From Paraflavisolibacter caeni (GTDB lineage Bacteria > Bacteroidota > Bacteroidia > Chitinophagales > Chitinophagaceae): DNA of 64,000 nt. A program made the translations under genes and the position numbers. The DNA lies in NCBI RefSeq assembly GCF_025628885.1, contig NZ_JAOTIF010000002.1:1-64000 (forward strand), in the 5' to 3' direction. Numbering within the stretch: the stretch's first letter is position 1; each line of letters begins with the position of its first letter. Below the pieces are notes generated by a model. The model did no database searches. It saw only the letters and a list, made by a program, of their open reading frames with translations, and was not told where the DNA came from. Of this stretch, positions 9,812 through 46,250 are shown one piece after another.

Positions 9812-9891
9812 TCTTAACCTTGCGGTAACATTGAATTCATCTTACGGTAACATTGACATAACACAGCGGTAACATCGAATTTCGTCCTTTG
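9812..9891 (+). promoter_or_regulatory. Candidate Pho box: 11-bp phased TTAAC/GTAAC repeats with a -7 element
   Basis: TTAAC (9814), GTAAC (9825), GTAAC (9847), ATAAC (9858) and GTAAC (9869) start in one exact 11-bp register; only the slot at 9836 (TTCAT) is degenerate. Within it a 12-mer, CGGTAACATTGA, recurs at 9823, 9845 and 9867 (last copy C for T), exactly 22 bp apart. GTCCTTTG (9884-9891), a partial match to the Bacteroidota -7 consensus TAnnTTTG, starts 10 bp after the last repeat. PhoB and PhoP boxes have this design. The TonB receptor starts 38 bp after the last repeat. The array is directly visible; Pho control is inferred. Confidence 0.7.
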
Positions 9892-22971: not shown

Positions 22972-23037
22972 TTTACAGTTATTTACATTAGCATAATACT
23001 CGCTTAACGTTACGTTAACTGTGCGCTTCTACTTTTA
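22972..23037 (+). promoter_or_regulatory. Candidate Pho box: 11-bp phased repeats with a -7 element before the SusC gene
   Basis: TTTAC (22982), ATAAT (22993), TTAAC (23004) and TTAAC (23015) start exactly 11 bp apart; another TTTAC lies at 22972 (10 bp off). TACTTTTA (23030-23037) matches five of six defined positions of the -7 element TAnnTTTG and begins 10 bp after the last repeat, the same geometry as at 9812-9891. The SusC start is 130 bp further on, leaving a 5' leader of about 110 nt. Regulation by PhoB is inferred. Confidence 0.65.
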
Positions 23038-31126: not shown

Positions 31127-31212
31127 TATTAATTATTTGATAACCCCGGCTTAAATCTTGCTTAACAATACTGGCTTTCTTTTGACTGTGAATTATTATT
31201 CAATTGACTATT

Positions 31213-39850: not shown

Positions 39851-41305
39851 TTATCTTGGTAATCCTTTAATAATCACAATTTCACTACCCTGGTCTTCAC
39901 TCTTTCTCTTGCTGCCACCGTCAACACCTGCAAATTTTGCATCTCTCCAGGTATGAGGCTGAACGCTCAAGGCAAACGTATTGGCCAAACCTGTGGCATC
40001 TGATATGTCTATCAGTGCTCCATATTCCCAGCTTCCTTTTACAGACATGCCGCCTACATTATACTTGGAAGCATCGGCAGCATTTCTTCTGTGATCCAGC
40101 TCAAATACTTTTTTTAATGCTCCCGTTGCTATATCATATTGGTAAACATAGGCATCGTGATCTTCAGTACCATAAGTATTGGAGTCTTCCTGTATATATA
40201 CATAGTTGGTGGTTACACAAACGTTATCTGGGTTTTGAAAATCTTTAGCAGGGCCTTTGTCGTCATCGCCATCAAGGATGCAGGTAAGTTTACCTTTCAG
40301 TGGATTTGATGGATCTAAAACCAGTCTGTATACACGGCCATAAACCGTACGGGAGTGGTCAGCATTCACGCCAGATGCCTCTTGACCGGTAACATTGAAA
40401 TATATTTCACGATAATTAGCCGCGTTGCCTTTGCGGTAATCCAGGTCTTCTACACGGCCAAACTTAATGGCTTTCAAAGGATCAACCAACGCTTGTATTT
40501 GTGCACCGGTTAATGTTTTGTGATTTTCAATTTTTACGAATTCCACGTCATAAGCTGTGCCTGCAACTATGTCGGTTTCTTTCTGGTTGTTATCACTGCG
40601 TTTCAGCATATACTGGGAGCCGTTTTCCAAATCGCCAATAACATTGCTTAAGTACATCACTAACTGTCCGCCTGTGGCATCTGAAGCATCTTCGCCGGTA
40701 ATGATTATGGATTTACCTGTATAGGCATTTTTGTGAAGCGGTACAGAGTTTTCAGCGCTCCAGCGTCCAAGGCCTGTCAACCCCTTGGAGGTATTCGGTG
40801 TGGCTACGCTTTGATATGGATCAATGCCATGGGTCTGTGCTTCTACGCTGCTTTCCCCCGCACTGAAATAAAGAGGACCAAACCCGTTTACATCTGGAGT
40901 AGCTAATGTTCCGGAGCATAAACGCCACTGGCCACCATCTGAATTCAATGCGTATTCGCCTTTTATTGGTTTCAGATTTTTATCCAGGTACAGTTTGGAT
41001 ACTGAATAGTTATCTTCATTGTTTACCATCATAATATAACCTTCTCCATCCTTTGCTCTCAAAAATCCGGAGCCATCGGCAGAACCGCCAAAACGGTAGT
41101 TAGGCAGCGAATCCTCGCTACTGATAAGGGTATATAATTCTAGGTTCTCAAAGCCAGTCAGTTTCTTTAAAAGAGCTGGAGTCGCAGAATAACTTTTGAT
41201 TTCAGGCTTTGTTGAGGGAGAAGGATGGTCCTTCTTGTCACAGGCAGTAAGTGCTGCTGCTAATGAGGTAAGAAAAAATAAGTTCGTTGGTTTGATTAGG
41301 TTCAT
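39851..41305 (-). CDS. PhoX-like (DUF839) beta-propeller lipoprotein, probable phosphatase
   Basis: 484 residues. The lipobox is LAAALTAC (Cys22). The mature part is a beta-propeller with features of PhoX/DUF839 proteins: YRFGGSADGSGFLRAKDGEG, MVNNEDNYSVSKLYLD, a SGTLATP strand, SIIITGEDASDATGGQLVMYLSN, then KFGRVEDLDYRKG with IYFNVTGQ, and a late NPDNVCVTTNYVYIQEDSN. In PhoX the acidic residues of such segments bind calcium and iron at the active site. I infer a calcium-dependent phosphatase; a propeller without activity is the alternative. Its divergent promoter region holds a phased repeat array on its own strand (41343-41380), 38 bp from the start codon, the same distance as at 9911. Confidence 0.65.
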   Translation of the reverse strand: MNLIKPTNLFFLTSLAAALTACDKKDHPSPSTKPEIKSYSATPALLKKLTGFENLELYTLISSEDSLPNYRFGGSADGSGFLRAKDGEGYIMMVNNEDNYSVSKLYLDKNLKPIKGEYALNSDGGQWRLCSGTLATPDVNGFGPLYFSAGESSVEAQTHGIDPYQSVATPNTSKGLTGLGRWSAENSVPLHKNAYTGKSIIITGEDASDATGGQLVMYLSNVIGDLENGSQYMLKRSDNNQKETDIVAGTAYDVEFVKIENHKTLTGAQIQALVDPLKAIKFGRVEDLDYRKGNAANYREIYFNVTGQEASGVNADHSRTVYGRVYRLVLDPSNPLKGKLTCILDGDDDKGPAKDFQNPDNVCVTTNYVYIQEDSNTYGTEDHDAYVYQYDIATGALKKVFELDHRRNAADASKYNVGGMSVKGSWEYGALIDISDATGLANTFALSVQPHTWRDAKFAGVDGGSKRKSEDQGSEIVIIKGLPR

Positions 41306-41324: not shown

Positions 41325-41380
41325 CGAAGTTCAATGAGCATTGTTGCGAAATTGTTACCTCATGATTAAGCATAATTTAA
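41325..41380 (-). promoter_or_regulatory. Candidate Pho box for the PhoX-like/peroxidase genes
   Basis: Reading the minus strand: TTAAA (41380-41376), TTAAT (41369-41365), GTAAC (41358-41354) and GCAAC (41347-41343) start exactly 11 bp apart. GAACTTCG (41332-41325), four of six defined positions of TAnnTTTG, starts 10 bp after the last one. It is weaker than the other arrays but in the same geometry, and 38 bp from the ATG at 41305. Confidence 0.55.
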
Positions 41381-41426
41381 TTGTCCGATAAAATCTTCTC
41401 TACTTTCTGTCCTCTGCCATTCCTTC

Positions 41427-41482
41427 TTAACCCAACCATAACCTTCTCTTAACCATATAGTAATATATAGTTGGTTGATTTG
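41427..41482 (+). promoter_or_regulatory. Candidate Pho box for the phosphoesterase-glycosyltransferase-GH1 operon
   Basis: TTAAC (41427), ATAAC (41438), TTAAC (41449) and GTAAT (41460) start exactly 11 bp apart. TTGATTTG (41475-41482) matches five of six defined positions of TAnnTTTG and starts 10 bp after the last repeat. The first gene starts at 41524. Together with the minus-strand array at 41343-41380 this makes a divergent, doubly boxed promoter region. Confidence 0.68.
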
Positions 41483-41523: not shown

Positions 41524-42378
41524 ATGACCAATAAATCTAAGAGGGAAGTTGAAATTGTAATTATCTCCGATGTGCACCTGGGCACATACGGTTGTCACGC
41601 AAAAGAGCTGCTTCACTACCTGAAAAGTATTAAACCTTCCACAATCATTCTGAACGGCGACATAATAGATATCTGGCAATTTAGTAAACGCTATTGGCCA
41701 AAAAGCCATATGAAGGTGGTAAAATACCTGATGAACCAGGTCTCCAAAGGCGTGGAGGTTCATTATATAACCGGTAACCACGATGAAATGATGCGCAAGT
41801 TCGTCGGCTTTACAATGGGATCATTTTCTATCAAAAACAAACTGCTGCTGTCTTTAAAAAATGGTGAACATGCTTGGATCTTTCATGGAGATGTGTTTGA
41901 TGTAACCATGAAGCATTCAAAATGGCTGGCCAAACTGGGGGCCATTGGTTATGATACACTGATCCTGATCAATCAGATGGTCAACTTCCTATCCGTCCAT
42001 CTTCTGAAAAAAGGTAAGATTTCTTTATCTAAAAGAATTAAGAATAGCGTGAAAAAAGCGTTGACATACATCAACGACTTTGAGCAAACAGCTGCAGGCA
42101 TCGGCATCGATAAACACTATCAATACGTCATCTGCGGGCATATTCATCATCCTCAGATGCGCAAAGTGCAAAACGAAAAGGGCACCATCATGTATCTCAA
42201 TTCGGGCGACTGGATTGAAAACCTGACAGCTCTTGAATACAGCAACGGGCAATGGAGTATTTATCATCATCAGGAGACAGTCATTTCAGAAGAAACAGAA
42301 AAGGAAGAAGAGGAATTGAATGTAGATATCCTCTTCAACAACCTGATACAGGAATTCAACGAACTGCGTAAACCATGA
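41524..42378 (+). CDS. Metallophosphoesterase of the LpxH/PlcP type, possible phospholipase C
   Basis: 284 residues, no signal peptide. All metal motifs are present: DVHLG (D16, H18), GDIID (D46), GNHDE (N85, H86), HGD (H121) and GHIHHP (H206, H208). Proteins of this shape are usually annotated UDP-2,3-diacylglucosamine hydrolase, but the same family includes PlcP. In Sinorhizobium and marine bacteria PlcP cuts membrane phospholipids to diacylglycerol during phosphate starvation and is often encoded beside a glycosyltransferase. Here the stop overlaps a glycosyltransferase start (ATGA) and the promoter bears a candidate Pho box. I therefore favour the PlcP role; the LpxH role remains possible. 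Confidence 0.85.
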   Translation: MTNKSKREVEIVIISDVHLGTYGCHAKELLHYLKSIKPSTIILNGDIIDIWQFSKRYWPKSHMKVVKYLMNQVSKGVEVHYITGNHDEMMRKFVGFTMGSFSIKNKLLLSLKNGEHAWIFHGDVFDVTMKHSKWLAKLGAIGYDTLILINQMVNFLSVHLLKKGKISLSKRIKNSVKKALTYINDFEQTAAGIGIDKHYQYVICGHIHHPQMRKVQNEKGTIMYLNSGDWIENLTALEYSNGQWSIYHHQETVISEETEKEEEELNVDILFNNLIQEFNELRKP

Positions 42379-43457
42379 AAATCTTATACGCCATACAGGG
42401 AACTGGAAATGGCCACGTAAGCCGGGCCGGTGATATCATTCCCATTTTGCAAAAACATGGTAAGGTCGACGTTTTGATTAGCGGAACGCAGTCCGACCTG
42501 AAACTGCCATATAATGTCAACTACACTTGCAATGGCCTTAGCTTCATCTTTGGGAAAAAGGGAGGCATAGATTATCTGGAGACCTATAAGAGAAGTAATA
42601 TAAAAAAGCTGTTTAAAGAGGTGAGCAGCTTGCCTGTAAAAGAATATGACCTTATTATCTCCGACTTTGAACCGGTTAGTGCTTGGGCCTGCTTCTTGAA
42701 AAATAAACCTTGTATAGGTCTGAGTCATCAAAATGGAGTAACCTGCAAACAGGCACCCAAACCCTCTAAAACGGATCTGATCGGTAAAGCTGTATTGAAT
42801 TGTTACGCTCCATCTACCTACCGCTATGGGTTTCACTTTCAACCATACGCCAAGAACATTTTTACCCCTGTCATCAGGCAGGAAGTAAGAAACCTGAGTA
42901 CTGAAAATAACGGGCACTATACAGTTTATCTGCCTGCTTATGGTGATAAGCAGATCATTAGGTTTTTATCCTGCTTCCCCGAAGTCCAGTGGCAGGTGTT
43001 TTCAAAGCATAACTCAAAAGAAGTTGAGTTTGATAATATCTGCATTTACCCTGTCAACAATAGAAAATTCCTGGAAAGTATTGCCAGTGCAGAAGGTGTC
43101 TTGTGCGGAGCTGGTTTCGAAACGCCGGCTGAAGTTTTATACCTGAGAAAAAAACTAATGGTGATTCCTATGAAAGGCCAGTACGAACAGCAATGTAATG
43201 CTGCTGCATTAAAAATGTTGGGTGTTCCGGTGCTGAAAAATCTGAAGCCTAAGCAATTTAAAAAGTTACATAAATGGCTGCAGGAAGAACAACAATATGA
43301 AATCGACTATCCAGACAATACATCAGAGATCCTGGCAGGGATTATAAAAAAACACGCACAAGAAAAATCCCAGGCAGACACTGTTAAAAATGTTGCTGAT
43401 AGTCCCTCTGAATTCCACAACCTCTTAATGAAAAATATATTCGTAAAAGCTGATTGA
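42375..43457 (+). CDS. GT-B glycosyltransferase (GT28 / MJ1255-like), possible diacylglycerol glycosyltransferase
   Basis: 360 residues, no signal peptide. It starts with the glycine-rich acceptor loop MKILYAIQGTGNGHVSRAGD, typical of the MurG/GT28-like group. The central segment DLIISDFEPVSAWAC and the C-terminal nucleotide-sugar pocket GVLCGAGFETPAEVLYLRKKLMVIP followed by EQQCNA are also as expected. It overlaps the phosphoesterase by 4 bp, so the two are translationally coupled. If the phosphoesterase makes diacylglycerol, this enzyme could glycosylate it to a glycolipid, as Agt does in other phyla. Donor and acceptor are inferred. Confidence 0.85.
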   Translation: MKILYAIQGTGNGHVSRAGDIIPILQKHGKVDVLISGTQSDLKLPYNVNYTCNGLSFIFGKKGGIDYLETYKRSNIKKLFKEVSSLPVKEYDLIISDFEPVSAWACFLKNKPCIGLSHQNGVTCKQAPKPSKTDLIGKAVLNCYAPSTYRYGFHFQPYAKNIFTPVIRQEVRNLSTENNGHYTVYLPAYGDKQIIRFLSCFPEVQWQVFSKHNSKEVEFDNICIYPVNNRKFLESIASAEGVLCGAGFETPAEVLYLRKKLMVIPMKGQYEQQCNAAALKMLGVPVLKNLKPKQFKKLHKWLQEEQQYEIDYPDNTSEILAGIIKKHAQEKSQADTVKNVADSPSEFHNLLMKNIFVKAD

Positions 43458-43461
43458 TGCC

Positions 43462-44835
43462 ATGGAAATACATTCCTCTCACTTTGGAAACAACTTTGAT
43501 TGGGGCGTTTCTTCTTCTGCTTGCCAGACGGAAGGAGCGGCCACTACTGATGGAAAAGGCCTATCTATATGGGATACCTTTTGCATGAAGCCTGGAAACA
43601 TTTTCAATAACCAGAATGGCAACACTGCTTGCAATTTTTATGACAGATACATCTACGACCTGATTCTGATGAATTTCCTCGGCATCAGGAACTTTCGCTT
43701 CTCCATTTCATGGCCTCGCATCATCCCCGATGGGATAGGCGCAAAAAATGAAAAAGGTATAGACTTCTATAATCGCTTGATCGATTTTTGCCTGGAAATG
43801 GATATTAAGCCTTGGATTACCCTGTACCATTGGGACCTCCCACAGGCTTTAGAATCAAAAGGAGGTTGGACCAACAGGGAGATATTGAACTGGTTTACAG
43901 ATTATGTGGAAACCTGCATACAGCATTTTGGCGATAGAGTGAACAATTGGATGGTGTTGAATGAACCTTTGGTATTTACTGGGGCAGGGTACTTCCTGGG
44001 CATACATGCACCAGGGAGAAAAGGAATGAACAACTTTTTGGCTGCAGCACACCATGCTGTTTTATGCCAGTCATTGGGGGGAAGGATCATCAAATCAATA
44101 AATAGTAGATTCAAGGTTGGTACTACATTTTCCGCTTCGCTGATTGAACCAGTCGAACATACGAAGTCGCATGTGGAAGCCGCTACCAGGGTAGATGCTA
44201 TAATAAATCGTATGTTCATCGAGCCTTTGATGGGATTGGGATATCCTGTTCATGACTTCAAATTGCTGCAACAAATGGAGAAGTTTATAGAACCTGGTGA
44301 TGAAAGCATCATGCCTTTTGCAATGGACTTTATTGGAACACAGAACTACACAAGAGAAATCGTAAAATACTCGCCAGTCTTCCCTCATCTGCATGCACGT
44401 TTAATCAAAGCAAGCCAACGGAATGTTCCCGCAACAACCATGAACTGGGAAATATATCCCGAAAGCATTTACCACATCCTCAAAAAAGTGGCTGCTTACG
44501 AAGGCGTTTCCAATATTATAGTAACTGAAAATGGAGCAGCTTTCAATGATGTACTGATCAACAATCAGGTGCAAGACTATCAACGGATTCAGTATATGCA
44601 AGACTATATCGCCCAGGTACTCCGGGCTAAAAATGAAGGAGTACCCGTCAATGGCTACTTCTATTGGACATTCACCGACAATTTCGAATGGGCAGAAGGC
44701 TATAGCAAAAGATTTGGTTTGGTATATACAGACTTCTCTTCTCAACGCAGGATTGTTAAATCTTCAGGTTACTGGTTCCAGCAATTTTTAGACTTGCAAA
44801 AGAGCGCAGTATACTTTCCCAAAAAAGCATCATAA
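43462..44835 (+). CDS. GH1-family beta-glycosidase, cytosolic
   Basis: 457 residues, complete GH1 barrel without signal peptide. Landmarks: FDWGVSSSACQTEGA (substrate-subsite Gln), FRFSISWPRIIPDG, the acid/base in LNEP (E168), the nucleophile in VTENG (E356), and NFEWAEGYSKRFGL for the glycone. A plain beta-glucosidase is the default reading. Its start is 4 bp after the glycosyltransferase stop, so it belongs to the candidate lipid-remodelling operon. A role on glycolipids, either trimming or transglycosylation as in the plant GH1 enzyme SFR2, is an inference from position. No stop or substitution disrupts the active site. Confidence 0.92.
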   Translation: MEIHSSHFGNNFDWGVSSSACQTEGAATTDGKGLSIWDTFCMKPGNIFNNQNGNTACNFYDRYIYDLILMNFLGIRNFRFSISWPRIIPDGIGAKNEKGIDFYNRLIDFCLEMDIKPWITLYHWDLPQALESKGGWTNREILNWFTDYVETCIQHFGDRVNNWMVLNEPLVFTGAGYFLGIHAPGRKGMNNFLAAAHHAVLCQSLGGRIIKSINSRFKVGTTFSASLIEPVEHTKSHVEAATRVDAIINRMFIEPLMGLGYPVHDFKLLQQMEKFIEPGDESIMPFAMDFIGTQNYTREIVKYSPVFPHLHARLIKASQRNVPATTMNWEIYPESIYHILKKVAAYEGVSNIIVTENGAAFNDVLINNQVQDYQRIQYMQDYIAQVLRAKNEGVPVNGYFYWTFTDNFEWAEGYSKRFGLVYTDFSSQRRIVKSSGYWFQQFLDLQKSAVYFPKKAS

Positions 44836-44842
44836 ATTGGTT

Positions 44843-45352
44843 TTACAATGGCCTGTACTTTATGATGGATAAATGGGGCTGCATTTTTAATGAAAACATA
44901 TCAATCGTTTCTCCTGCCAACGTTTTGTCTCCCTCAGCCAATAGCATATGATCGCCTATACTATCAAAGAGTGTTAGCGTATCGGATGTATAAGTCAATG
45001 CTACTACATGCGCCTGCTCGTTGGTAATATCAGATGCCACAATTTCAAACTCATGGTTTGCAAATGGAATATGATTCCTGCCCAATGAATCTTGCAAATG
45101 GGGCATCTTTCCGTTTAACCCTTTTACATAAAGCCCAATACTAAAGCCTACTTTATAAGGAATATTGAAAGCCGCTTTCCCGTTATCTGCTTTCAACTCC
45201 TCCCAGGTTTTGTATCGGTTGTCTTGGTTATATGTTTGAATCTGTATCTGGAACTCACTGTACGAGTCTTTCCATACATTCTGTTCGAAAGCTCCGTTAG
45301 AGGCAATATCTATGATCTGTCTGTAGGCAATTTGGATCAGGGCTTTAGGCAT
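44843..45352 (-). CDS. Unknown protein beside the intradiol dioxygenase
   Basis: 169 residues, no signal peptide or membrane helix. A start MPKALIQIAYRQIIDIA is followed by strand-rich sequence (KVGFSIGLYVKGLNG, FANHEFEIVASDIT, HVVALTYTSDTLTLFDS). I do not recognise the family. It ends 7 bp from the stop of the convergent GH1 gene and starts 12 bp after the dioxygenase stop, so it is probably co-transcribed with the dioxygenase gene. Confidence 0.7.
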   Translation of the reverse strand: MPKALIQIAYRQIIDIASNGAFEQNVWKDSYSEFQIQIQTYNQDNRYKTWEELKADNGKAAFNIPYKVGFSIGLYVKGLNGKMPHLQDSLGRNHIPFANHEFEIVASDITNEQAHVVALTYTSDTLTLFDSIGDHMLLAEGDKTLAGETIDMFSLKMQPHLSIIKYRPL

Positions 45353-45364
45353 AAGTGTTTGGTT

Positions 45365-46081
45365 TTATGCGGCTATGTAAATCGTATGCACAAGGTCATA
45401 GCCTCCTGTTGAATTAGCTGCTACTAGGGCCAGTTCATTATCCAACGAATCCCGGATGATAGAATCACTAGTATTCTTTGTGGAGTTCTGTCCATGTGCT
45501 GCATATAACGTCGTATTATATACTGCAGTATTGATGTCCTCCGGAAAAGCGATTTGCGTGGTCAGTTTAAGCACGTTATTCACAAAAACCTGTGCGTGTA
45601 TATGTGTAACACGGCCACTGTACCAGCCTGGATAAATGGAAGAAAACTTCACCACACCACTGGCATCTGTATACTGAAGCCCCCTGCAAAACACTTCAGA
45701 ACTATTGTTTTGTGTGCCCAGGTAACCTGAGTTGGTATAACCTGAATAGTAACCATCCTTATCACAATGCCAGATATCTACCCTTGCGTTCGATACTACA
45801 TTGCAGTTGTCGTTCACATTTCTGATGGTGATATTGATGTTGAGAGGAATGCCAGGTTTGCCATCTGCAATATTGGTGCGCTGAATGGAGGAACCTCTGC
45901 TGTTATAAAGAGGGTACGGACCATCTGTTTCTGAATCTGTAACAGCGCAGCCATCACTGGTGTCTGACCCGCTGGTTTCATCATCAACGGCATCTTCCTT
46001 GTTACAACTGTTAAAGGCCGGAATGATCGATGCAAGGCTGATCATGCCAACGCTGTTTTTTAAAAAATCTTTTCGTTGCAT
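45365..46081 (-). CDS. Exported intradiol ring-cleavage dioxygenase-like lipoprotein
   Basis: 238 residues from ATG 46081. The frame opens at 46174, but the chosen start gives MQRKDFLKNSVGMISLAS, a Tat-like signal, then a lipobox at FNSC. The catalytic fold shows DGPYPLYNSRG, ARVDIWHCDKDGYYSGY and YPGWYSGRVTHIHAQV. These contain the two tyrosines and two histidines that bind Fe(III) in protocatechuate/catechol dioxygenases. Extracytoplasmic lipoprotein versions are frequent in Bacteroidota and their substrates are mostly unknown. Possible roles are opening catechol-like rings from plant or siderophore material. Confidence 0.85.
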   Translation of the reverse strand: MQRKDFLKNSVGMISLASIIPAFNSCNKEDAVDDETSGSDTSDGCAVTDSETDGPYPLYNSRGSSIQRTNIADGKPGIPLNINITIRNVNDNCNVVSNARVDIWHCDKDGYYSGYTNSGYLGTQNNSSEVFCRGLQYTDASGVVKFSSIYPGWYSGRVTHIHAQVFVNNVLKLTTQIAFPEDINTAVYNTTLYAAHGQNSTKNTSDSIIRDSLDNELALVAANSTGGYDLVHTIYIAA

Positions 46082-46250
46082 ATCGTGGATTTTCGTTGAA
46101 ATAAAATTATTCTCAACGCTTCCAACAGCAAAGAGTCTCTCGGTAAGTGACCCGTTTTTACTGATCGTTAACAAAAAAAGCTCCTAAACATGGAATGCTC
46201 CATTTTCATATTTCCAAATTGGCTAATTTGCTCATCATCACAGTTTTTCT

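Follow-up and report, generated by a model that had tools for sequence, protein, structure and literature searches.

The first 64,000 nucleotides of contig NZ_JAOTIF010000002.1 of Paraflavisolibacter caeni (Bacteroidota), referred to here as the window, carry a three-gene operon (41524–44835, forward strand) encoding a PlcP-type phosphoesterase, a glycosyltransferase (GT) of the GT-B fold, and a retaining beta-glycosidase of glycoside hydrolase family 1 (GH1). That this trio is a phosphate (Pho)-regulated lipid operon is well supported, and its probability is put at about 0.85. In proteobacteria, PlcP and a glycosyltransferase make glycolipids in low phosphate (PMC4796936 and PMC8528852). The third enzyme of the trio appears, by a slight preponderance, to act on the glycolipid or on something derived directly from it, with transfer and hydrolysis of the sugar sharing this probability about evenly. 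A narrower proposal is put forward only tentatively: GH1 might function as a glycolipid:glycolipid transglycosidase that converts monoglycosyl- into diglycosyl-diacylglycerol in low phosphate without a second nucleotide sugar.

All three open reading frames are intact. The first two overlap by 4 bases (ATGA) and the last two are separated by a gap of 4 bases, so that the tight operon described in an earlier note on this DNA, drawn from the letters alone, holds. The same 4-base PlcP–GT overlap is found in 17 of 40 measured junctions, with the duplicate L016/L135 counted. Whether other Bacteroidota share the trio, a question that the earlier note had left to be searched for, was followed in three sources, namely a GH1 scan of genome contigs, a class-wide sample of 295 genomes, and a phylum sample of 198 genomes; overall, they yielded 40 distinct trio loci including the window (41 rows, since L016 equals L135) in diverse Bacteroidota, among them Sphingobacterium pedocola (L035) and Pontibacter aydingkolensis (L012). 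Loci L001 and L116–L118 were dropped as duplicates before counting and L016 also from the final counts. Since order and strand are the same in the 39 other distinct loci while the flanking genes differ between loci, the arrangement is more than chance. Among the 50 loci of the contig scan, the full trio occurs in 17 and a GT–GH1 pair at a contig start in one; all 18 belong to the 27 closest loci (51–62% identity), and none was found in the 23 more distant ones, short stretches in some cases. A close GH1 (E at most 1e-120) is present in 80 of the 295 class-wide genomes, and the neighbourhoods of these 80, some of which end at contig ends, contain the trio in 22 cases, spread over 13 family codes, and GT–GH1 in one. 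In the phylum sample, 123/198 genomes have a GT match; in the strongest 53 GT loci (window included), PlcP lies directly upstream in 47, and GH1 directly downstream in 5 of these 47, which makes the PlcP–GT pair commoner than the trio. Eight weaker GT loci (L108–L115) were examined, none of which qualified as a pair by the rule used.

The first gene product matches PF12850 (E 1.5e-12) as well as PF00149 (calcineurin-like phosphoesterase), and retains the motifs GDIID, GNHDE, HGD, and GHIH. Residues D16, H18, D46, N85, H86, H121, H206, and H208 are invariant in seven aligned rows, although these metal-binding motifs are also present in the LpxH row and mark the calcineurin-like superfamily only. 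Against a Sinorhizobium meliloti homologue the protein scores 149 bits with 36% identity, versus 56 bits and 25% against the LpxH candidate of its own genome (L227:4529–5308). The gene of the S. meliloti homologue adjoins genes for an acyl-homoserine-lactone synthase and a LuxR-type regulator, and we take it to be the characterised plcP, SMc00171, next to sinI/sinR. On two LpxH models the window protein reaches 48.7 bits (NF003743, cut-off 134) and 37.7 bits (cut-off 190.35), while the LpxH candidate, with 103.4 bits on NF003743, likewise remains below both cut-offs. These scores indicate that the first gene is of the PlcP type, as the earlier note had proposed, and that LpxH is most likely encoded elsewhere. 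The enzyme would act on a phospholipid and yield diacylglycerol.

The regulatory motif of the operon, a predicted Pho box built of 11-base direct repeats, is what appears to be new. Published PHO boxes are direct repeats of 7+4 bases, i.e., with an 11-base period (PMC4415409), and the site before the trio, CTTAACC-CAAC-CATAACC-TTCT-CTTAACC, has this architecture, as does the motif before the organism's own pstS; no Bacteroidota consensus was found in a search of the partly available literature on Pho boxes. Of 88 distinct PlcP upstream regions, 30 contain TAAC units at 11- or 22-base spacing, versus 7 of 460 control regions (Fisher p 6e-20), the controls being distinct other upstream regions from the same loci. 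L002 was left out of this count, as were PlcP rows that start late, have little upstream sequence, or show less than 45% identity. A position weight matrix (PWM) was trained on PlcP upstream regions, that of the window included, and given a threshold of 15.1 (the 2% control threshold). It is exceeded in 15/37 trio, 23/41 pair, and 1/10 other PlcP regions, and in 8/460 controls, all as distinct rows. The site before the trio scores 21.4, a value attained by one of the 460 controls, with the window in the training set. Out of sample, the sole PWM site in 19 kb around the organism's own pstSCAB–phoU locus lies just upstream of pstS (score 22.6); PstS, PstC, PstA, and PhoU of this locus are above their model cut-offs, and PstB is also model-matched. 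The phosphate-starvation control suggested in the earlier note thus gains predictive support from a motif shared by the trio, pstS, and many other PlcP operons.

The 64-kb window contains five PWM clusters, versus 0.37 expected in shuffles, two of them in the two directions of the 41305/41524 intergenic region (Table 1). Because these Pho-box-like clusters lie by receptor, metallophosphatase, and trio genes, the trio and much of the window appear to belong to a phosphate-scavenging region. Genome-wide, 11-base triplets with zero mismatch number three, the site before the trio and two of an unrelated tandem repeat. With up to one mismatch there are 16, of which 14 are copies of a dispersed TATAACTCTAC-type tandem repeat and one belongs to another tandem repeat; therefore, the triplet search alone shows no regulon. 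The TATAACTCTAC-type repeat imitates the Pho-box period. A PhoBR pair considered as the neighbour of locus L097 was rejected, the neighbouring genes tested there being MurC-like, Obg, PaeA/GldE-like, and one without a match.

The second gene product matches PF13528 (E 4.7e-32) and TIGR00661, the latter with 167.8 bits, below the cut-off of 195.9. Its AlphaFold2 model (mean predicted local distance difference test score, pLDDT, 94.1) has YojK, MurG, and sterol 3-beta-glucosyltransferase as top structural matches, i.e., a GT-B fold of the GT1/GT28-like type near inverting families. GT-B enzymes of the GT1/GT28 type use an inverting mechanism, and the modelled fold agrees with a beta product. Structures of monogalactosyldiacylglycerol (MGDG) synthase are not among the 50 structural matches listed for the model, which excludes nothing. 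An apparent GT–GH1 fusion at L003 and L006 was discarded, since the alignment had run through a stop codon.

The operon resembles the PlcP–Agt systems of Sinorhizobium, Phaeobacter, SAR11, and Pseudomonas, in which plcP is often directly followed by the glycosyltransferase gene and Pho boxes are predicted (PMC4796936, PMC8528852). However, the window GT belongs to the PF13528/MJ1255 family with a GT1/GT28-like fold, rather than to the GT4 type that stands beside PlcP in Sphingomonas, and the window operon adds the GH1 gene. In Flavobacterium johnsoniae, of the same phylum, PlcP (Fjoh_4577) and a glycosyltransferase (Fjoh_0541) are both induced by phosphate depletion, a likeness of function that does not imply orthology of the glycosyltransferases; unlike in the window, the two genes are listed apart, as 'orphan' and 'PhoBR operon', and the term 'glycoside hydrolase' has no occurrence in the main text of that paper (PMC8115612). 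A different MJ1255-type glycosyltransferase follows PlcP at L127:2338–3381, with PF04101, the Pfam family given for Fjoh_0541, as its best match. No description of the PlcP–GT–GH1 trio was found in open-licence literature, judged by titles and the beginnings of abstracts.

The third gene product matches PF00232 (E 5.4e-142) and TIGR03356 (529.5 bits, above the cut-off of 478.5), and retains both catalytic motifs, LNEP (E168, the acid/base) and TENG (E356). It is thus the intact GH1 of the earlier note; on reading, no signal peptide is visible, the sequence beginning at the barrel. In a tree of 127 GH1s, from which the distant rows L047–L050 were left out, 39 of the 40 trio GH1s and both GT–GH1 rows fall into one 54-row branch (Shimodaira–Hasegawa-like approximate likelihood ratio, SH-aLRT, 94), together with 13 lone GH1s; the trio GH1 of L065 falls outside. 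Moreover, the linkage to GH1 is explained by only four state changes on a GT tree of 98 rows. Mantel tests on 37 trios, omitting the copies or near-copies L004, L006, L016, and L025, gave r 0.54 for GT–GH1 (0/999 permutations) and r 0.36 for PlcP–GH1 (1/999), while PlcP–GT was not significant (r 0.12, 157/999). After removal of the outliers L145 (PlcP a 38% paralogue) and L065 (GH1 off-branch), all three were significant (r 0.52, 0.53, and 0.33; 0/999 each), although such co-variation can also stem from shared host descent. The PlcP of the L145 trio (L145:2297–3091) looks as if it had been swapped for a different paralogue.

The main argument that GH1 is itself Pho-regulated rather than a passenger comes from the lone members of the branch, i.e., those outside the operon, of which 5 of 13 have the motif upstream. 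Of the remaining upstream regions at these loci 2/99 have it, as do 1/51 GH1s that do not belong to the branch, while 0.075 would be expected by shuffling. Sphingobacterium accounts for four of the five, and the offset is identical in three, which leaves about three independent lineages. Within trio operons the motif occurs in 0/44 GH1 upstream regions (duplicates included), as expected for a co-transcribed gene.

The preferred pathway would operate as follows. On phosphate exhaustion, a PhoB-type regulator would presumably bind the 11-base repeats and switch on all three genes. In turn, PlcP would release diacylglycerol and the phospho-headgroup from a membrane phospholipid, probably phosphatidylethanolamine, and the GT-B enzyme would transfer sugar from a uridine diphosphate (UDP)-sugar to diacylglycerol, giving a glycosyl-diacylglycerol of probable beta configuration. 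GH1, in the same compartment, would then act on this beta-glycoside. Either it would move the sugar to a second glycolipid, forming a diglycosyl lipid and diacylglycerol as does plant SFR2, or it would take the sugar off again, as reported for Chlamydomonas CrGH. In this way, GH1 may balance non-bilayer against bilayer glycolipids, or may recycle them.

The comparison with SFR2 is an analogy, as the window GH1 begins, on reading, at the barrel and scores above the cut-off of the ordinary beta-glucosidase model. The lipid that SFR2 uses is the product of an inverting GT28-type synthase. SFR2 is a galactolipid:galactolipid galactosyltransferase of plants and a member of the GH1 family (PMC4011751), to which the window GH1, with both catalytic glutamates, also belongs. 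SFR2 is a chloroplast enzyme, whereas the bacterial gene sits in an operon. CrGH is a GH1 galactosyl hydrolase involved in galactolipid turnover and triacylglycerol synthesis; it shares both catalytic motifs with the window GH1, but it is eukaryotic and associated with lipid bodies, and the available text mentions no phosphate control (PMC8065580).

Several points weigh against this pathway or the place of GH1 in it. A hydrolase co-expressed with the maker of its substrate looks futile unless the sugar is transferred. Moreover, 42 of the 47 PlcP–GT pairs in the phylum sample have no adjacent GH1, which renders GH1 dispensable for the basic pathway. The earlier note had named absence of GH1 from syntenic operons as a refutation; the trio does recur, so that the proposal is not refuted on this count, though most pairs lack an adjacent GH1. 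The note's interpretation is supported in part, with respect to PlcP identity, Pho signal, and conservation of the trio, whereas a glycolipid product and a lipid substrate of GH1 would be predictions. Within the window's own genus the GT occurs in 4 of 18 genomes (the window, G033, G475, and G484), so that the operon is an accessory trait. The motif exceeds its threshold only in those 15 trio and 23 pair regions, the trio's own site is part of the training set, and the Sphingobacterium cases are not all independent. Furthermore, GH1 passes the cut-off of the beta-glucosidase model TIGR03356, and in the flavobacterium Dokdonia sp. MED134 low phosphate induces plcP, yet the membrane lipids were described as a number of aminolipids, not glycolipids (PMC4796936).

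The strongest competing explanation, though still doubtful, is that of GH1 as an ordinary cytosolic beta-glucosidase under Pho control, acting on soluble beta-glucosides or on glycosyl-glycerol from lipid breakdown; the freed glucose would feed UDP-glucose or carbon metabolism, and the PlcP–GT pair would still remodel lipids. Besides the TIGR03356 match, the closest solved structures are beta-glucosidases, and the motifs that we take to form the sugar site look canonical. The window GH1 shares family and catalytic residues with the bacterial beta-glucosidases but differs in operon context and in the residues after the acid/base: eight positions are conserved in the trio branch and different in other Bacteroidota GH1s (related rows, hence not independent), and three of them, V171, A175, and F178, lie within ten residues after E168. 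In plant GH1 enzymes, residues after the acid/base line the aglycone site, and these substitutions therefore fit a change in the aglycone more than one in the sugar. In addition, the same-genus genome G033 (L056) has kept GT–GH1 with no PlcP match genome-wide at E 1e-20. Together with the linkage to the GT within one branch and the co-variation with the GT, these features tie GH1 to the product of the GT. The upstream neighbour at L056 is a type I phosphodiesterase-like gene, and Pho-box-like sites precede both that gene and the GT.

Less probable is a low-phosphate remodelling in which the GT acceptor is not diacylglycerol, the lipid made is something other than a glycosyl-diacylglycerol, e.g., another Bacteroidota lipid, and GH1 edits that glycoconjugate. 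The aminolipid response of Dokdonia would agree with it, as would the lack of BLAST similarity between the window GT and the GT4-type PlcP partner in Sphingomonas. However, of 52 strong GT loci retrieved, 46 have the GT immediately after PlcP, and PlcP provides diacylglycerol in the proteobacterial systems studied (PMC8528852, PMC4796936). Finally, an LpxH identity of the first gene, with a role of the operon in lipopolysaccharide synthesis, is very improbable and was rejected, since the weak LpxH model matches are far below the cut-offs (although homologues are publicly annotated as UDP-2,3-diacylglucosamine diphosphatase), the protein is much nearer S. meliloti PlcP, a better (if itself sub-threshold) LpxH candidate exists in the genome, and a Pho-box-like motif lies upstream.

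Table 1. Features of the window around the trio and other Pho-box-like clusters.
Feature	Position	Strand	Remarks
PlcP-type calcineurin-like phosphoesterase	41524–42378	+	284 aa
GT-B glycosyltransferase (MJ1255/PF13528 family)	42375–43457	+	360 aa
GH1 retaining beta-glycosidase	43462–44835	+	457 aa
Pho-box-like direct repeat	41426–41454	+	three 7-base units at 11-base period; 70–98 bases before PlcP start
Weaker second Pho-box-like site	41353–41381	-	PWM 16.3; toward divergent gene 41305–39851
Gene divergent from trio	39851–41305	-	484 aa; without Pfam match
Downstream neighbour, no family match	44843–45352	-	no link to trio seen
Downstream neighbour, intradiol-dioxygenase-like	45365–46174	-	no link to trio seen
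Pho-box-like cluster	9813–9874		before TonB-dependent receptor
Pho-box-like cluster	22981–23020		before SusC/SusD–DUF5689–metallophosphatase set
Pho-box-like cluster	31139–31167		about 0.9 kb before another TonB-dependent receptor

The divergent gene is followed by a weakly EfeO-like gene and a MauG-like gene. A PhoX identity was considered for its product and rejected, with no Pfam match at E 5 and no PDB sequence match at E 10; its structural model is poor (mean pLDDT 45.7). Its placement beside MauG resembles the PhoX–MauG pair of F. johnsoniae, a likeness of position that need not mean homology. One of 37 further related genomes was found to have a homologue, duplicated in tandem (L230, L231).

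Bacteroidota are abundant in soil, sea, and gut, and the remodelling of their membranes in low phosphate has been little studied. The trio points to an uncharted editing step in their exchange of phosphate lipids for sugar lipids, and the operon supplies a defined third enzyme and a candidate Pho-box motif for which the whole phylum could be screened. Moreover, it bears on whether the editing of membrane glycolipids by GH1 enzymes, known from plants and algae, also takes place in bacteria. If the transglycosidase proposal were true, Bacteroidota would have evolved the logic of plant MGDG synthase and SFR2 within a single phosphate-controlled operon.

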